A DNA stretch of 64,000 bases, from assembly GCF_003253705.1 (NCBI RefSeq), contig NZ_QKYU01000025.1, forward strand, positions 1-64,000, written 5' to 3'. Positions 9,567 through 16,690 of the stretch are shown in pieces. Below the pieces are notes generated by a model. That model was not told the origin of the DNA. It made no database searches and saw only the letters and a program-made list of their open reading frames with translations. Origin of the DNA: Humitalea rosea (GTDB lineage: Bacteria > Pseudomonadota > Alphaproteobacteria > Acetobacterales > Acetobacteraceae). Position 1 is the first letter of the stretch; every line of letters begins with the position of its first letter. The position numbers and the translations under genes were made by a program.

Positions 9567-10640
9567 ATGACCAGCCCCCATCCCGATACCTGGATGCGCG
9601 TCACCCCCAAGGGCCTCTTCTGCGAGCCCGCGGGTGTCTACATCGACCCTTCGCGGGCGGTGGACCGCGCCATCATCAGCCACGGCCATTCCGACCACGC
9701 CCGCCCCGGCCACCGCGCCGTGCTGGCGACGGCCGAGACGCTGGCCATCATGCGCGCCCGCATGGGGGCCGACCGCGCGGGCGGGAGCCAGCAGGCGATG
9801 GCCCTGGGCGCGCCCCTCGACATCAACGGCGTCACCATCCGGCTGGTGCCGGCCGGGCATGTGCTGGGCTCGGCCCAGGTGGTGCTGGAGTGGCGCGGCA
9901 GCCGCATCGTCGTCTCGGGCGATTACAAGCGGGCGGCGGACCCGACCTGCGCGGGCTTCGAGCCGGTGCCCTGCGATGTCTTCGTCACCGAGGCGACCTT
10001 CGCGCTTCCCGTCTTCCGCCATCCGCCGGCGGCGGGCGAGATCCAGCGCCTGCTCGCCAGCATCCGCCTCTTCCCCGAGCGCTGCCATGTCATCGGCGTC
10101 TATGCCTTGGGCAAGGCGCAGCGGCTGATCGCCCTGCTGCGCCAGGCGGGGTGGGAGCGGCCGATCTATCTGCATGGCGCGCTGATCGCGCTCTGCGAGC
10201 TGTATGAATCCCTCGGCGTGCCGCTCGGCCCGCTGCTGCCGGTGCCGCCGCTGCAAAAACGCGGCAAGGCCGAGGCGGGGCTGGCGGGGGAGATCGTGCT
10301 GGCACCGCCCTCGGCCGATTCCACGCCCTGGTCCCGGCGCCTCGCCGATCCGGTGAGCTGCGCCGCCTCCGGCTGGCTGCGGGTGCGGCAACGGGCGAAG
10401 ATGCGCGGGATCGAGCTGCCGCTGGTGATCTCCGACCACGCCGATTGGGACGAGCTTCTGGCCACCGCCTCGGACGTGCAGGCGCCCGAGGTCTGGATCA
10501 CCCATGGGCGGGAGGATGCGCTGGCCTATGCGCTCGGCACGCGCGGCATCCGCGCGCGCGCCCTGCATCTGGTCGGGCGCGGCGAGGATGAGGACGAGGC
10601 CCTGCCCGAGGCCGCCCCGGAGCCGGCCCCCGCCGCATGA
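9567..10640 (+). CDS. Ligase-associated DNA exonuclease, metallo-beta-lactamase fold
   Basis: Predicted 3'-end nuclease of the beta-CASP metallo-beta-lactamase group, the type usually paired with an ATP-dependent DNA ligase. In 357 residues, the metal site ISHGHSDHA is at 37-45 (H39, H41, D43, H44). AGHVLGSAQ supplies the next histidine, VVSGDY the bridging aspartate, and VISDHADWDEL and VWITHGRED the C-terminal ligands. ATG 9567 is taken because the 11 residues before it lack conservation. The ligase gene overlaps the stop by four bases (ATGA), so the two act together in DNA repair. The helicase and phosphoesterase genes usually in this cluster are not adjacent. Confidence 0.82.
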   Translation: MTSPHPDTWMRVTPKGLFCEPAGVYIDPSRAVDRAIISHGHSDHARPGHRAVLATAETLAIMRARMGADRAGGSQQAMALGAPLDINGVTIRLVPAGHVLGSAQVVLEWRGSRIVVSGDYKRAADPTCAGFEPVPCDVFVTEATFALPVFRHPPAAGEIQRLLASIRLFPERCHVIGVYALGKAQRLIALLRQAGWERPIYLHGALIALCELYESLGVPLGPLLPVPPLQKRGKAEAGLAGEIVLAPPSADSTPWSRRLADPVSCAASGWLRVRQRAKMRGIELPLVISDHADWDELLATASDVQAPEVWITHGREDALAYALGTRGIRARALHLVGRGEDEDEALPEAAPEPAPAA

Positions 10641-12220
10641 GCGGCAGCCTCGCCGCCTTCGCCGATCTGCTGGAACGGCTGCTCTTCACCCAGGGGCGCA
10701 ATGCCAAGCTCGCCTTGCTGCGGGACTGGTTCGCGAGCCAGCCCGACCCCGATCGCGGCATTGGCCTCGCCGCCATCACCGGGGACCTCGGCTTCGCGAC
10801 GGCCAAGCCCGCGATGATCCGCGCCCTGGTCGCGGAACGGACCGACCCGATGCTGTTCGACCTCTCCTACGACTATGTCGGGGATCTGGCCGAGACCGTC
10901 GCCTTGCTCTGGCCCGCGCCCGAACACCCCGAGCCGCCGCCGGGCCTCGCCGATGTCGTCGCGGCACTGGAACTGGCGCCGCGCGCCTCGGTGCCGGCGA
11001 TGCTCGCGGATTGGCTGGACCGGCTGGATGTCTCCGGGCGGCTCGCGCTGGTCAAGCTGGTCACCGGGGGGTTGCGGGTCGGCGCCTCGGGCGGGCTCGC
11101 CCGCATGGCGCTGGCCGAATGGTCCGGCCGCCCGGTGGAGGAGGTCGAGGAAGCCTGGCACGCCTGCCTGCCGCCCTATCTGCCGCTGTTCGACTGGCTG
11201 GAGGGCAGGGGGCCGCGCCCCGATGCCGCCGGTGCCCCGGTGTTCCGCCCGCTGATGCTGGCGCATCCGCTGGAGGAGGCGGATCTGGCCGCGATCGCGC
11301 CCGAGACCCATCGCGCCGAATGGAAATGGGACGGCATCCGGGTCCAGGCCTGCGCCGGGCCGTCCGGGCGCCGGCTCTGGTCCCGCAGCGGCGAGGACCT
11401 CTCCGCCGCCTTCCCCGAGATCGTCGCGGCGATGGAGTTTTCGGGCGTGGTGGATGGCGAGTTGCTGGTGCTGCGCGACGGGGTGGTGGCGCCCTTCGGC
11501 GATCTGCAGCAGCGGCTGAACCGCAAGATCGTGACACCCCGGATGCAGAAGGAGTTCCCCGCGGCGGTGCGGCTCTACGACATCCTCTTCGATGGCGCGG
11601 AGGATCTGCGCCCGCTGCCCTTCGATGCCCGCCGCGCCCGGCTGGAGGGTTTTTTGGCCACCCATGCGCCTGCGCGCTTCGACCTCTCGCCTCTGGTCCC
11701 CTTCGCCGAGGTCGAGGAGCTTGCCGTCCGCCGCGCCACCGCGCGGGCCGAGGCGATCGAGGGGCTGATGCTGAAGCGCGCCGACAGCGCCTATGTCGCC
11801 GGCCGGGTGAAGGGGCTGTGGTGGAAGTGGAAGCGCGCGCCGCTCAGCGTCGATTGCGTGCTGATGTATGCCCAGCGCGGGCATGGCAAACGCTCCTCCT
11901 ACTACAGCGACTACACCTTCGGCCTGTGGCGGGGGGAGGAGTTGGTGCCGGTCGGCAAGGCCTATTCCGGCTTCACGGATGTGGAACTGGTCTGGCTCGA
12001 CCGCTGGGTGCGCGCCCATACCACCGCCCGCTTCGGCCCGGTGCGGGAGGTGGAGAAGGCGCTGGTGCTGGAGGTCGTCTTCGACGCGGCGCAGCCGAGC
12101 TCTCGGCACCGCTCGGGGCTGGCCATGCGCTTCCCCCGCATCGCCCGCATCCGCGCCGACAAGCCGGCGGCCGAGGCCGACCGGCTGGAGGTGCTGGCCG
12201 CCATGGTCGGGAAGGGCTGA
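10637..12220 (+). CDS. ATP-dependent DNA ligase, cisplatin-response type
   Basis: ATP-dependent DNA ligase of the bacterial class linked to DNA-damage (cisplatin) response, 527 residues, normal length. An N-terminal helical DNA-binding domain (about 1-200) leads to the nucleotidyltransferase core: motif I EWKWDGIR with the adenylated lysine K230, motif III about LWSRSGEDLS, motif IV near EGLMLKR, and motif V GLWWKWKR. The OB-fold follows. It shares an ATGA overlap with the exonuclease gene. It is distinct from LigD at 43990-46512, so the genome carries at least two ATP-dependent ligases. Confidence 0.88.
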   Translation: MSGSLAAFADLLERLLFTQGRNAKLALLRDWFASQPDPDRGIGLAAITGDLGFATAKPAMIRALVAERTDPMLFDLSYDYVGDLAETVALLWPAPEHPEPPPGLADVVAALELAPRASVPAMLADWLDRLDVSGRLALVKLVTGGLRVGASGGLARMALAEWSGRPVEEVEEAWHACLPPYLPLFDWLEGRGPRPDAAGAPVFRPLMLAHPLEEADLAAIAPETHRAEWKWDGIRVQACAGPSGRRLWSRSGEDLSAAFPEIVAAMEFSGVVDGELLVLRDGVVAPFGDLQQRLNRKIVTPRMQKEFPAAVRLYDILFDGAEDLRPLPFDARRARLEGFLATHAPARFDLSPLVPFAEVEELAVRRATARAEAIEGLMLKRADSAYVAGRVKGLWWKWKRAPLSVDCVLMYAQRGHGKRSSYYSDYTFGLWRGEELVPVGKAYSGFTDVELVWLDRWVRAHTTARFGPVREVEKALVLEVVFDAAQPSSRHRSGLAMRFPRIARIRADKPAAEADRLEVLAAMVGKG

Positions 12221-12232
12221 GACCTTCGGTAA

Positions 12233-12255
12233 CAGTTGCGAGTTAGTCGCAACTG
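12233..12255. promoter_or_regulatory. Fur-like operator before the iron-binding protein gene
   Basis: A perfect inverted repeat with 9-base arms CAGTTGCGA and TCGCAACTG separated by GTTAG. The TTGCGA-N5-TCGCAA core resembles alphaproteobacterial Fur/Mur boxes. A near-identical palindrome lies before the iron permease gene at 15968-15986, which makes a shared metal-responsive repressor likely. A role as a ligase-gene terminator is less likely because no T-run follows. Confidence 0.6.
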
Positions 12256-12263
12256 GAGTAGAG

Positions 12264-12309
12264 CCGGGCCAGAACAAAGCCGGCCAGAACAAAGCCGGCC
12301 AGAACAAAG
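12264..12309 (+). repeat. Three tandem copies of a 15-base unit in the leader
   Basis: CCGGCCAGAACAAAG occurs at 12280-12294 and 12295-12309, preceded at 12264-12279 by a copy with one extra G. The array ends ten bases before the ATG of the iron-binding protein gene and supplies its AAAGGAAG ribosome-binding region. It is a slippage-prone leader that could tune translation. Confidence 0.8.
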
Positions 12310-12318
12310 GAAGTCGCC

Positions 12319-13356
12319 ATGAGCCCCCAGATCTCCCGACGCCCGCTGCTGCTCGCGGGCCTTGCCGCCGGTCTTGCCGCGCCCAGGCTGGTCCGCGCCT
12401 CGGATGGCGTGGTGAACCTCTATTCCTCCCGGCATTATGACACCGACCGGGCGCTGTACGACGGCTTCACCACCGAAAGCGGCGTCCGCGTCCGGCTGAT
12501 CGAGGGCGATGCCGACCAGTTGATCGAACGCATCCGCAATGAGGGCGCGAACAGCCCGGCCGATGTGCTGATCACCGTCGATGGCGCGCGCCTCGCCCGC
12601 GCGCAGGAGGCGGGGGTGCTGGCCCCGACCCGCAGCGCGCTGCTCGAAGCCCGGGTGCCGGAAAACCTGCGCGACCCGCAGGGGCATTGGTACGGCGTGT
12701 CCCGCCGCGCCCGCGTCATCATGTACGACAAGCAGAAGGGCGCCCCCGCCGGCCTCACCCGCTACGAGGATCTGGCCAAGCCCGAGTACCACGGCCAGAT
12801 CCTGATCCGCGCCGCGAACCACCCCTACAACCTCTCCCTGGTCGGCAGCCTGATCGCGGCCAATGGCGCCGAGGCGACCGAGATCTGGGCGCGTGGCGTC
12901 GTCGCCAACATGGCCCGGCCGCCGCAGGGCGGCGATACGCCGCAGTTCACCACCGTGGCGGCGGGGCAGGGCTCCATCGCCATCGCGAACACCTATTACC
13001 TCGCCCGGTACGGTGCGTCCTCGGTCGCGTCGGAGAAGGCGGTCTATGACCGGATCGGCGTGATCTTCCCCAACCAGGCCGATCGCGGCACGCATGTGAA
13101 CGTCTCCGGCGCCGGGGTGGTGACGACGGCGCCGAACAAGGCAACGGCGCTGGCCTTCATCGAATATCTGACCGGCGAGCGGGCGCAGGAGCTCTTCGCC
13201 AACGGCAATTTCGAATATCCGGTGGTCGCGGATGTGGCGCCGCATCCGGCGCTGGCCGCCTTCGGCACCTTCAAGGCCGATGCGTTGAACGCCGCCCGCT
13301 ACGGCGCCTTGGCCGGCGAGGCGCTGCGGATCATGCAGCGCGCCGGCTGGCGCTGA
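12319..13356 (+). CDS. Ferric-iron ABC transporter substrate-binding protein
   Basis: Periplasmic Fe(III)-binding protein of the FbpA/FutA class, 345 residues. An RR-containing signal (SRRPLLLAGLAAGL, residues 6-19, Tat-like) precedes the mature start NLYSSRHYDTDRALY, which is the usual first strand of the class. Tyrosines in NTYYLARY near residues 224-231 fit the iron-ligand position. The Fur-like palindrome at 12233-12255 and the 15-base repeats lie directly upstream, with AAAGGAAG before the ATG. The matching permease gene is at 14273-15958 on the opposite strand; no ATPase gene is in the window. Confidence 0.85.
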   Translation: MSPQISRRPLLLAGLAAGLAAPRLVRASDGVVNLYSSRHYDTDRALYDGFTTESGVRVRLIEGDADQLIERIRNEGANSPADVLITVDGARLARAQEAGVLAPTRSALLEARVPENLRDPQGHWYGVSRRARVIMYDKQKGAPAGLTRYEDLAKPEYHGQILIRAANHPYNLSLVGSLIAANGAEATEIWARGVVANMARPPQGGDTPQFTTVAAGQGSIAIANTYYLARYGASSVASEKAVYDRIGVIFPNQADRGTHVNVSGAGVVTTAPNKATALAFIEYLTGERAQELFANGNFEYPVVADVAPHPALAAFGTFKADALNAARYGALAGEALRIMQRAGWR

Positions 13357-13470
13357 GCGCCGGGCGGTGTTGTTCGCGATGACGAAGCAATACTGTCGCA
13401 TTACTGGCTGATCTTGCGGCGCCGGCTTGGTTCATGGCATGGGTCGGGCCTTCCTGCTTAGGTCTGACCC

Positions 13471-14109
13471 TTGCGATTTCTGGCATTCTTGGTCTGCGGC
13501 GGTTTGGCAGCGTTTCTGGTTCCGGCCGGGGCGCAATCCTATGATGGTCCGCAGTGCCGCCAGGACTGTAGCGCCGGCGCCGGCGAGCGATCCGGTCAGA
13601 CCCGTGCGGTGCAGTCCTGCCTTGCGCGCTGCGCCGTTCGCCAGGGTGTGGTGCGGCAGCAGCAGGAAGACGCCCGCAGCCGCCCGCGCGGCCGCGCCCC
13701 GGCACCGCCGCCGGTGCCGGTCGCAGCACCCCCGCCGGGGCCGATGCGCTATTACGGCACCATCTATACCGCCGCCCCCCCGGGCACCGGCGTCGGCATC
13801 ACCGTGGGCCAGGCGGACCGCATGCTGGCCCATCGCACCGCAGAGAATGACTGCATGAACCGCGGCGGCGCGCCCTGCCGCCTGGTCAGCGAATTCACCT
13901 TCGCCTGCGCCGCGGTTGCCCATGGCGTCCGGCAGTCGCCGGGCACGGCGATCATGACCTCCGATCCCAGCACCTTCCGGCTGCATGTCGTCGGCCATGG
14001 GATGGCCAATACCCGGGCCGATGCCGAATATGATGCCATGAGCGACTGCAACCGCCGCGACCGCGGCCTGACCTGCGGCATCGTGCGCAGCGAGTGCTCG
14101 GGGCGCTGA
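13471..14109 (+). CDS. Secreted DUF4189-domain protein
   Basis: Exported protein of 212 residues with unknown role. TTG 13471 gives a short signal peptide, MRFLAFLVCGGLAAFLVPAGAQS. A cysteine-rich part follows (QCRQDC and SCLARC, about 29-56), then a proline-rich linker (about 72-90). The C-terminal half fits DUF4189: YYGTIY then two AxxxAxxxC-type blocks ending in CRLVSEFTFACAAVAHG. Start choice rests on the signal peptide; no strong ribosome site is visible. It lies between the two halves of the iron transporter, but a link to iron is only positional. Confidence 0.55.
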   Translation: MRFLAFLVCGGLAAFLVPAGAQSYDGPQCRQDCSAGAGERSGQTRAVQSCLARCAVRQGVVRQQQEDARSRPRGRAPAPPPVPVAAPPPGPMRYYGTIYTAAPPGTGVGITVGQADRMLAHRTAENDCMNRGGAPCRLVSEFTFACAAVAHGVRQSPGTAIMTSDPSTFRLHVVGHGMANTRADAEYDAMSDCNRRDRGLTCGIVRSECSGR

Positions 14110-14114
14110 CTGGC

Positions 14115-14264
14115 AAGGATCGAGGGGCTTTTCGCCCCTCGATTCCCCCAGCAGAAACAAGGTGTTCTGCACTTCCCCTTAATAGATTGAACTTACTTAT
14201 AAAAAGGGAAGGTCCAGGAAACCCGGTTTCCTGGTGGGAGGGTATGGGAGGGCAAAGCCCTCCC
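14115..14264. terminator. Multi-hairpin block between convergent genes
   Basis: Four inverted repeats are packed here. ATCGAGGGGC (14119-14128) pairs with GCCCCTCGAT (14134-14143) across TTTTC. GCAGAA (14151-14156) pairs with TTCTGC (14165-14170). CCAGGAAACC (14214-14223) pairs with GGTTTCCTGG (14225-14234) across one base. GGGAGGGC (14246-14253) pairs with GCCCTCCC (14257-14264). As the flanking genes converge, the block is probably a bidirectional terminator. The part around 14175-14215 is AT-rich. Confidence 0.6.
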
Positions 14265-14272
14265 CATAACGC

Positions 14273-15958
14273 TCAGCGCCGCCGCATGCTCCGCACGATC
14301 ACCAGCACCGGCAGCAGCCCGATGGCGACGATCAGCAAGGCGGCGGTCGAGGCCTCGGTCAGCCGCTCATCCGCCGCGAGGTTGTGGACCCGCACCGCCA
14401 GGGTATCGAGGTCGAAGGGCCGCACGATCAGGGTCGCCGGCAGCTCCTTCATGGTATCGACGAAGACCAGCAGCGCCGCGGTCAGCAGCGCGCCGCGCGC
14501 CAGCGGCACCTCGATCCGCACCACCGCTTCCGCCGGCCCCGCGCCCAAGGTGCGGGCGGCGGCGGCCAGGCTCGGCCTGACGCGGGACAGCCCGGCCTCG
14601 GTCGCCTGCAAGGCGACGGCCAGGAAGCGCACGAGATAGCCGAAGATCAGCGCCACCATCGTCCCCGACAGCAGCAGCCCGGTGGAGACGCCGAACTGCG
14701 CGCGGAAAAACCCGTCCAGCGCATTGTCGAAGATGCCGAAGGGCACCAGCGTCCCAACCGCGATCACCGAGCCCGGCACCGCATAGCCCAGCATCGCCAG
14801 GCGCCGGGTAATGGTCGCGAGCCCCGAGGGATGCTGCCGCCCGCCCCAGGCCAGCAGGGCCGCCAGCCCCACCGCCAGCACGGCGGTGATGGAGGCCAGC
14901 GTCACGCTGTTGATCGCATAGGGCAGGAAGCGGTGGGCGGCGAGCGGATCGCCCACGGTCGCCGCCGCCACCGCGAGCCAGCCGGCCGGGACCAGGAAGC
15001 CGATCACCACCGGCATGGCGCAGAGCAGGCTCGCCGCCCAGGCCTTGATCCCATGCAGCCGCACCTGGCGCAGCGGCGGCTGGCGCGTGCTCATCGGGTG
15101 GAAGCGCCGCCCGCCGCGCGAGACCATCTCCAGCACCAGCAGCACCGCCACCACCACCATCAGGCAGGCGGCGAGGCGGGAGGCGGCGCCGCGATCGGCC
15201 ATGCCGAACCAAGCCTCATAGATGCCGGTGGTGAAGGTCGGCACCGCGAAATGCTCCACCGTGCCGAAGTCCGAGAGCGTCTCCATCAGCGCCAGCGCCG
15301 TGCCCCCGGCCAGGGCCGGCCGCGCCAGCGGCAGCGCCACATGCAGGAAGGTGCGGGGCAGGGACTGGCCAAGGGTGCGCGAGGCCTCGATCAGGCAGAC
15401 CGACTGCTGCATGAAGGCGTTGCGCGCCAGCAGATACACATAAGGATAGAGCACCATCGCCATGACCACGGCCGCCCCCGGCAGGCTGCGGATCTCGGGG
15501 AACCAGTACTGGCCGAAGCCGAGGCCGGTCGCCGAGCGAAGTGCTGTCTGCACCGGCCCGGAGATGTCCATGATCTCGGTATAGACATAGCCGCAGACAT
15601 AGGCCGGCATCGCCAGCGGCAGCAGCAGCGCGACCTCCAGCAGGCGCGAGCCGGGGAAGCGGCAGGCGGTGACCAGCCAGGCCGTGGTCGCCCCCGCCGT
15701 CACCGTCATCAGCCCGACCAGCAGCACCAGCATGCCGGAATTGGCGAGGTAGGTCGGCAAGGTCACATGCACGATATGCGACCAGGCGGTGCCGGAATCG
15801 GCGGCCATGGCCGAGGCCAGCACGGCGATCAGCGGGGCCGCGACCAGGGCCGCGACCGGCACGCCGAGCCGGGCCCAGAGCGGCACGCGCCGGGCCGGCG
15901 GGGCGGGCCCGGGGTCCGGCGTCAGGAGCGGGGGCGCGAGGAGGAGGCTTGAGGACAT
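14273..15958 (-). CDS. Ferric-iron ABC transporter permease, fused two-domain type
   Basis: Inner-membrane permease of the FbpB/ThiP type, 561 residues with about twelve membrane helices, i.e. two BPD-transport domains in one chain. The first half has the ASRTLGQS...FLHVALPLARPAL loop typical of EAA-type coupling sites; the second has AARTLGAGPAEAVVRIEVPLARG. ATG 15958 is chosen because the ATG at 15979 lies inside the Fur-like palindrome at 15968-15986. It is expected to work with the iron-binding protein at 12319 and an ATPase encoded elsewhere. Spermidine/thiamine-type substrates are less likely given the paired Fur-like sites. Confidence 0.85.
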   Translation of the reverse strand: MSSSLLLAPPLLTPDPGPAPPARRVPLWARLGVPVAALVAAPLIAVLASAMAADSGTAWSHIVHVTLPTYLANSGMLVLLVGLMTVTAGATTAWLVTACRFPGSRLLEVALLLPLAMPAYVCGYVYTEIMDISGPVQTALRSATGLGFGQYWFPEIRSLPGAAVVMAMVLYPYVYLLARNAFMQQSVCLIEASRTLGQSLPRTFLHVALPLARPALAGGTALALMETLSDFGTVEHFAVPTFTTGIYEAWFGMADRGAASRLAACLMVVVAVLLVLEMVSRGGRRFHPMSTRQPPLRQVRLHGIKAWAASLLCAMPVVIGFLVPAGWLAVAAATVGDPLAAHRFLPYAINSVTLASITAVLAVGLAALLAWGGRQHPSGLATITRRLAMLGYAVPGSVIAVGTLVPFGIFDNALDGFFRAQFGVSTGLLLSGTMVALIFGYLVRFLAVALQATEAGLSRVRPSLAAAARTLGAGPAEAVVRIEVPLARGALLTAALLVFVDTMKELPATLIVRPFDLDTLAVRVHNLAADERLTEASTAALLIVAIGLLPVLVIVRSMRRR

Positions 15959-15967
15959 GGGCGCCGT

Positions 15968-15986
15968 GTTGCGATGCATTCGCAGT
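15968..15986. promoter_or_regulatory. Fur-like operator before the iron permease gene
   Basis: GTTGCGA (15968-15974), five bases, TCGCAGT (15980-15986): a 7-5-7 inverted repeat with one mismatched pair. The left arm equals the core of the palindrome at 12235-12241. It lies 10-28 bases before the permease start codon, a position where repressor binding would block transcription or initiation. Confidence 0.6.
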
Positions 15987-16036
15987 CCCTATGGCACCAT
16001 CCGGGGCCTGGGGCGAGTGACCGGGCTGGGCTGGCC

Positions 16037-16690
16037 TCAGCTTTCCTCTTCGGCCTTGCGCTTGGCCCATTCCGCCGGGGTCATGCGCGGGATCTCCAGC
16101 CGGTCGGTGGTGCGGGCATACCAGCCGCGGCCGTGCATGCGCCCGACCAGCCCGAGCTTGGGCGAGTCGATGTAATGCTTCACCGGGTCCAGCACGCAGT
16201 CGTCGCGCACATGCATCGCGAGGATCCGCCCCAGCACCAGCATGTTCTTGCCGAGAGGGACCAGTTGGAAGCGTTCGCATTCCATCGCGACCGGGCTTTC
16301 GGCGATGCGCGGCGGGCGGATCTTGGTCGAGGGCGCCGCGGTCAGCCCCGCCTCGGCCAGCTCATCCACCTCGGGGCCGAATTCAGTGGCGGTGACGTTC
16401 ATCTGCAAGGCGCGCTCTTCCGGCACCAGGCAGACGGTGAACTGGCCGGTCGCCTCGATATTGGCCAGCGTGTCCTTGTGGACGCCGTTGCGATGGCCGC
16501 AGCCGATGCCGATGATCGGCGGATCGCCGGAAAACCCGTTGAAGAAGGAATAGGGGGCCGCGTTCAGCACCCCGGCGCGGTCCTCGGTCACCACCCAGGC
16601 GATCGGGCGGGGCACGATGGTCGAGACCATGAGCTTGTAGCACTCGGTGCCCGGCAGCGTTTCAAAGTCGAAGATCATCTCAAGGGGCAT
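16037..16690 (-). CDS. Flavin reductase family protein
   Basis: FMN-binding split-barrel protein of the flavin reductase/DIM6-NTAB group, 217 residues. Near the N terminus VSTIVPRPIAWVVT (about 22-35) and LNAAPYSFFNGFSGDPPIIG (about 42-61) are the family's flavin-phosphate-binding signature. The C-terminal tail (MTPAEWAKRKAEEES) is charged. Such proteins supply reduced flavin to monooxygenases or act as oxidoreductases on their own; no monooxygenase is next to it. It is convergent with nothing and may be monocistronic; the hydroxyacid dehydrogenase genes end 90 bases upstream on the same strand. Confidence 0.8.
   Translation of the reverse strand: MPLEMIFDFETLPGTECYKLMVSTIVPRPIAWVVTEDRAGVLNAAPYSFFNGFSGDPPIIGIGCGHRNGVHKDTLANIEATGQFTVCLVPEERALQMNVTATEFGPEVDELAEAGLTAAPSTKIRPPRIAESPVAMECERFQLVPLGKNMLVLGRILAMHVRDDCVLDPVKHYIDSPKLGLVGRMHGRGWYARTTDRLEIPRMTPAEWAKRKAEEES

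Follow-up and report, generated by a model that had tools for sequence, protein, structure and literature searches.

FbpABC-type ferric-iron importers are encoded by operons that comprise a binding protein, a fused permease, and a TOBE-type ATPase. The cyanobacterial FutABC importers of Synechocystis and Trichodesmium are described as having unlinked genes; in Trichodesmium, the gene of the binding protein Tery_3377 is reported to lie apart from futB and futC (PMC6254336). The system presented in this study was found in a 64,000-nt stretch (the window, to which unprefixed coordinates refer) of contig NZ_QKYU01000025.1 (C25) of Humitalea rosea, a member of the Acetobacteraceae (Alphaproteobacteria) with a 4.97-Mb, 99% complete genome. 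It comprises the genes of a periplasmic ferric-iron-binding protein (12319..13356, plus strand) and a fused permease (14273..15958, minus strand), each preceded by a palindrome resembling a binding site of the iron sensor Fur, and a candidate ATPase gene elsewhere in the genome (C3). Similar to the cyanobacterial importers as published, the binding protein keeps the iron ligands and the importer genes are not all linked; unlike in those importers, the binding-protein and permease genes are neighbors that face each other with a putative operator each, and the ATPase is the separated subunit, located within an scpAB-tatBC cluster. The three types of parts are the same as those of FbpABC-type importers, whereas there is no operon here and the score of the ATPase falls far short of the NCBIfam cut-off for ferric ATPases. 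The sequences argue with good confidence that the palindromes are Fur operators, that the three proteins would form one Fut/Fbp-type ferric-iron importer, and that its ATPase would be made constitutively.

The two palindromes and their conservation

The binding protein is of the FutA/FbpA kind (345 residues; Pfam SBP_bac_6) and matches the solved structure of the Trichodesmium FutA Tery_3377 (PDB accession number 6g7n; E = 2e-113), plus other iron-binding proteins. In the alignment with 6g7n, all five iron ligands are kept (His39, Tyr40, Tyr170, Tyr226, and Tyr227; ligand list as given in PMC6254336), i.e., the H-Y-Y-Y-Y set of Fut/Fbp ferric importers. The permease contains the two BPD_transp_1 units of such importers in a single chain. 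Its reading frame is open up to an ATG at 15979, which falls within the second palindrome, so translation probably starts at the ATG at 15958 or later.

Operator 1 (12235..12253, GTTGCGAGTTAGTCGCAAC) is a perfect 7-5-7 inverted repeat, GTTGCGA-N5-TCGCAAC, located 65 bp from the ATG of the binding-protein gene at 12319. Operator 2 (15968..15986, GTTGCGATGCATTCGCAGT), at a distance of 3.7 kb, reads GTTGCGA-N5-TCGCAGT and lies immediately upstream of the permease gene. Both sequences are exactly those quoted in the initial annotation, which had also placed the two genes on opposite strands; its distance of 2 kb is to be corrected, as the genes are convergent and their ends (13356 and 14273) are 0.9 kb apart. 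With a matrix trained on other genomes only, operators 1 and 2 score 18.1 and 21.1 bits, respectively, and are the top two sites of the window, the third-best reaching 6.3 bits. Twenty Markov copies of the window (1.28 Mb) gave 18 matches of at least 10 bits and 2 of at least 18 bits. The exact core TTGCGA-N5-TCGCA has eight strand matches at six places in the whole genome, two of which are operators 1 and 2, and the reversed pattern has none.

Eighty permease loci were fetched from other genomes, the closest permease matches among named genomes belonging to Roseomonas-like Acetobacteraceae. The binding-protein gene was within reach in 25 of these loci and is convergent with the permease gene in all 25. 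The neighbors are conserved as well: the gene of an ATP-dependent DNA ligase (10637..12220, plus strand, TIGR04120, upstream of the binding-protein gene in the window) stands behind the binding-protein gene in the same order in 13 of the 13 loci showing both, and a flavin reductase-like gene (16037..16690, minus strand, PF01613) is upstream of the permease on the same strand in all 42 loci that hold it.

The upstream tests covered loci with enough upstream DNA (binding protein, 24 of 25; permease, 80 of 80 for the pattern and 79 of 80 for the matrix). Allowing two mismatches, the pattern was observed upstream of 22/24 binding-protein genes and 29/80 permease genes, and the reversed pattern upstream of none of either; among the control genes, it was found at 3/41 flavin reductase genes (reversed, 2) and 0/8 ligase genes. 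A matrix built from the permease sites alone recovers 22 of the 24 binding-protein sites, and conversely, training on the binding-protein sites retrieves sites of 8 bits or more at 38 of 79 permease genes, with no match for reversed and shuffled controls in either direction; the control genes gave 3/40 for the flavin reductase (one reversed match among 40) and 0/8 for the ligase. Across whole loci, sites of at least 10 bits are mostly at the binding-protein and permease promoters; nine lie elsewhere, including two close to the flavin reductase gene, compared with four reversed-matrix matches. The proposal of the initial annotation that one motif links the two genes is thus borne out by a shared motif that is conserved upstream of both in relatives.

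Two sites are present in 15 of the 25 binding-protein promoters, one in 7, and none in 3. In 13 of the 15 two-site promoters (L071, L084, L089, L090, L096, L109, L110, L118, L122, L127, L134, L143, and L147), the sites are exactly 23 bp apart, a constant distance suggestive of two adjacent Fur dimers; the H. rosea genome has a single site. Four family genomes (G015, G010, G003, and G032; loci L149-L152) contain a second, more distant binding-protein/permease pair arranged in tandem, and no ATPase gene was seen within approximately 4 kb on either side of these pairs.

The reader of the sites

The Acetobacteraceae also include Gluconacetobacter, and Fur boxes are described in this genus and in other alphaproteobacteria. 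The box reported for Gluconacetobacter diazotrophicus is a 19-bp 9-1-9 repeat (PMC9368920), that for Caulobacter Fur is a 19-bp palindrome (PMC3751524), and purified Fur1 of Sphingobium SYK-6 is reported to bind promoters carrying such boxes (PMC7376174). Similar to these published boxes, the sites presented here are 19-bp inverted repeats upstream of iron genes; the half-site is TTGCGA/TTGAGA, and the likeness to the published boxes is one of form.

The genome scan proposed in the initial annotation revealed the motif in front of other iron genes. The sequence TTGCRA-N5-TYGCAA occurs exactly at four places (on C9, on C18, at the binding-protein gene of the window, and on C44). The C9 site is upstream of hemP and a TonB heme receptor gene, and the C44 site is upstream of bfd and a ferritin-family gene, with a second site 30 bp off, i.e., the 19-bp inverted repeat is found at iron-gene promoters of the H. 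rosea genome. The form and the target genes of the motif fit Fur, and the palindromes are very probably its docking sites. The pair of palindromes is, as such, an ordinary feature of a Fur regulon.

Two Fur-family proteins (PF01475) are encoded in the genome, one of which is best described as Fur (C49:1185-1538; 89 bits against an NCBIfam cut-off of 146) and the other as Zur (C1:175785-176165; 128 bits against 167); both fall short of the cut-off of the model that fits them best, and Fur is the more plausible reader of the two. No Irr protein was found in the 99% complete genome, the Fur protein scoring 48 of 170 bits by the Irr model and the Zur-like protein giving no Irr match, and Irr was therefore rejected as the reader. 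The initial annotation had named Fur or Irr; the first half of this assignment agrees with the form of the box and its targets, and the second is not supported.

Some alphaproteobacterial Fur proteins sense manganese, and the boxes of Fur-family proteins resemble one another. Together with the low NCBIfam score of the Fur protein, this leaves some room for another metalloregulator (Irr, a Mur-like manganese sensor, or Zur) as the reader and for an importer that carries manganese or zinc. We consider this unlikely: Irr is absent, the second Fur-family protein is best described as Zur, the motif is located upstream of heme uptake and ferritin genes, and the closest solved relatives of the binding protein are ferric-binding proteins. 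Fur would thus remain the regulator that binds both sites and makes the two genes respond to iron.

The ATPase gene and the proposed importer

The window offers no ATPase gene next to the binding-protein or the permease gene, and the 80 relative loci contain only three ATPase genes, all long and exporter-like. In two relatives (G044 and G045), an ATPase gene is inside the Fut locus, and in a third (G043), it follows the permease. With the G044 ATPase as the query, the best H. rosea match is C3:201763-202719 (262 bits; next match, 202 bits). The corresponding candidate gene (C3 201760-202800) encodes ABC_tran and TOBE domains and is located between scpB and tatB, 7 bp behind scpB, as an orphan in the order argS-nagZ-scpA-scpB-ATPase-tatB-tatC. 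The gene behind it is identified as tatB by TIGR01410 (66 bits against a cut-off of 56.5). No tatA was found in the 100-bp gap between the ATPase gene and tatB (L219:7804-7905), the rest of the genome not having been searched for it, whereas three outgroup loci (L240, L241, and L243) show a tatA-like open reading frame (ORF) at this position.

This arrangement is observed throughout the family. In the 32 loci read, out of 53 genomes with a match, scpB is ahead of the ATPase gene in 30 and tatB is behind it in all 32. Among 248 family genomes, H. rosea being left out, 50 contain both the permease and the ATPase, 1 the permease only, 2 the ATPase only, and 195 neither; the three discordant genomes are assemblies of about 490 to 590 contigs. 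At the level of the class, 118 of the 289 genomes searched gave a match to the ATPase with E = 1e-85 or better, and 32 loci outside the family (5 plus 27 new) were read. The tatB gene is behind the ATPase gene in 31, and the remaining locus, at a contig edge, shows none of the genes. The permease gene is directly ahead of it in 8 of the 32, and scpB is ahead of it in 14. The C3 ATPase is thus tied to the permease by both gene order and co-occurrence and, also by homology, appears to be the missing motor of the importer.

The genome offers many other motors, with 104 ABC ATPases matching at 1e-20 (of 197 candidates, 150 were scored) and 16 TOBE_2 matches, and ATPases of importer type can be shared. 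The operators might accordingly be real while another ABC ATPase energizes the permease, and 8 of the 20 permease-bearing genomes of a wider scan of 60 genomes have no ATPase match at the threshold of 1e-75. Four of these eight (G003, G010, G015, and G032) are those with the distant pairs (permease 36-42% and binding protein 35-39% identical), in two (G043 and G045), the place is taken by a more divergent ATPase, and two (G023 and G050) are unexplained. A different motor is very unlikely, as the C3 ATPase, an orphan, clearly outscores all other matches, the permease and the ATPase agree in 245 of the 248 family genomes, and the ATPase directly follows the permease in the eight outgroup loci.

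The initial annotation had expected the motif to lead to the missing ATPase gene; it does not. No Fur-like site of at least 8 bits was found at any of the 32 family ATPase loci, H. rosea included (median best score, -7.9), or in the 15 kb around the C3 ATPase gene. Two of the three subunits therefore look iron-regulated, whereas the motor looks constitutive; since the ATPase gene has no operator in the family and starts 7 bp behind scpB, it is probably expressed constitutively with scpAB and tatBC. In the mechanism that we propose with the C3 ATPase as the motor, the single Fur protein (C49), when iron is sufficient, would bind both operators with its metal and block transcription of the binding-protein and permease genes, and a shortage of iron would release the two together. 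The three proteins, encoded at two places (C25 and C3), would then assemble into an importer whose predicted activity is the transport of Fe3+, and iron would act on it only through the binding protein and the permease.

If so, an iron importer can be split with only two of its three parts keeping the iron switch. What this study adds is the location of the ATPase gene and its apparent freedom from iron control, i.e., a proposed function for an ABC ATPase encoded between scpB and tatB. Literature searches on the scpB/tat gene order, on Roseomonas Fur, and on unlinked ferric transporters did not find this ATPase described as an iron motor. The matrix is also usable for Fur sites in Roseomonas-type bacteria.

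Several observations weigh against this mechanism. In addition to the low score of the Fur protein, the C3 ATPase does not reach the NCBIfam cut-off for the ferric ATPase (NF008513; 226 of 496 bits) or that for PhnT2 (308 of 457.7 bits). The binding-protein matrix detects nothing at 8 bits or above in 41 of the 79 permease loci, although the permease matrix gives four of them scores of 12-15; with the 3 of 25 relatives lacking a site at the binding-protein gene, they indicate that dual control is not universal, and, as judged from sequence, permease control is absent or altered in some lineages. The co-occurrence count treats related genomes as independent, and the permease is present in 17 and the ATPase in 18 of 91 genera. 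The looser 60-genome scan agrees less (both in 12, discordant in 8 and 2, neither in 37). Three good sites of the H. rosea genome (C32:6285, C1:402956, and C5:154434) are upstream of genes with no evident link to iron. With two mismatches allowed, the genome contains 161 matches against 128 for the control, and the looser TTGMRA pattern with one mismatch gives 18 against 9, so weak matches are largely noise. These counts, and the six matches with up to two mismatches in the window against a shuffle mean of 8.0, might suggest a chance resemblance of the palindromes, or a role as hairpins rather than operators, a reading that is scarcely credible given the independent matrix, the conservation at the same promoters, and the rarity of good sites elsewhere.

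Cluster history and other observations

In three other families (G036, G042, and G051), the order is nagZ-scpA-permease-ATPase-tatB-tatC, with Fur-like sites of 13.4, 21.4, and 9.0 bits, respectively, upstream of the permease; in G036 and G051, scpB-like and tatA-like ORFs, as we read them, occupy the two gaps of the cluster. The ATPase gene of the scpA-tatC cluster in G038 has its own site (21.1 bits). From the gene order, the permease and ATPase genes probably once shared the scpB-tat gap, which the permease gene then left with its operator. The fuller history, in which an old alphaproteobacterial cluster scpA-scpB-Fut permease-Fut ATPase-tatABC lost its permease with the Fur operator in the Acetobacteraceae, so that the ATPase remained in the cluster deprived of iron control, as a constitutive motor, is tentative. 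It is favored by the outgroup gene order and by ATPase sites of at least 8 bits, seen at 6 of the 14 outgroup loci with scpB ahead of the ATPase (best, 19.2 bits; others, 9-11) against 0/32 in the family; on the other side, the direction of the move is read from gene order. If true, the genes for the membrane part of the importer would have neighbored those of the Tat translocase, the very machinery by which the folded binding protein is exported.

The N terminus of the binding protein (MSPQISRRPLLL) contains the twin-arginine sequence SRRPLLL. A pair of arginines ahead of the mature part is found in all 29 other distinct relatives of at least 56% identity, and Tery_3377 is reported as a shown Tat substrate (PMC6254336); both speak for the cluster history. 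Against it, the pair is present in 4 of 17 sequences of lower identity, and 1 of 47 distinct sequences conforms to the strict Tat motif. Tat export of the H. rosea protein is possible.

A DUF4189 gene (13471..14109, plus strand) is located between the binding-protein and permease genes, as the initial annotation had noted. It is judged not to belong to the unit and to be incidental to the importer, since none of the 80 relative loci (up to 13.7 kb) contains a match to it at 1e-8. Between operator 1 and the binding-protein ATG, three copies of a 15-bp unit, GCCGG(G)CCAGAACAAA, form a tandem repeat (12263..12308, plus strand). A scan of 12180-16100 found no sigma-70 promoter and two terminator-like sites, against 1.7 expected.

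Further sites precede other genes of the genome. The C18 site (C18:32155-32171; L183:5155-5173; 23.7 bits) is upstream of an operon of TorD-like chaperone and molybdopterin oxidoreductase genes, which suggests iron control of an iron-rich enzyme. The site at C32:6285-6301 (L182:6284; 24.7 bits) is upstream of a minus-strand gene that encodes a MatE-family transporter. On C5, sites of 21.9 bits (C5:154434-154450; L308:4434) and 15.6 bits (L308:362) accompany the genes of a 272-residue protein without a Pfam match, a porin, and a di-heme cytochrome c peroxidase-like protein, possibly an unrecognized iron-related cluster. The site at C1:402956-402972 (L181:6956; 22.5 bits) is upstream of the gene of an approximately 80-residue protein without a Pfam or NCBIfam match, a possible new small Fur target.

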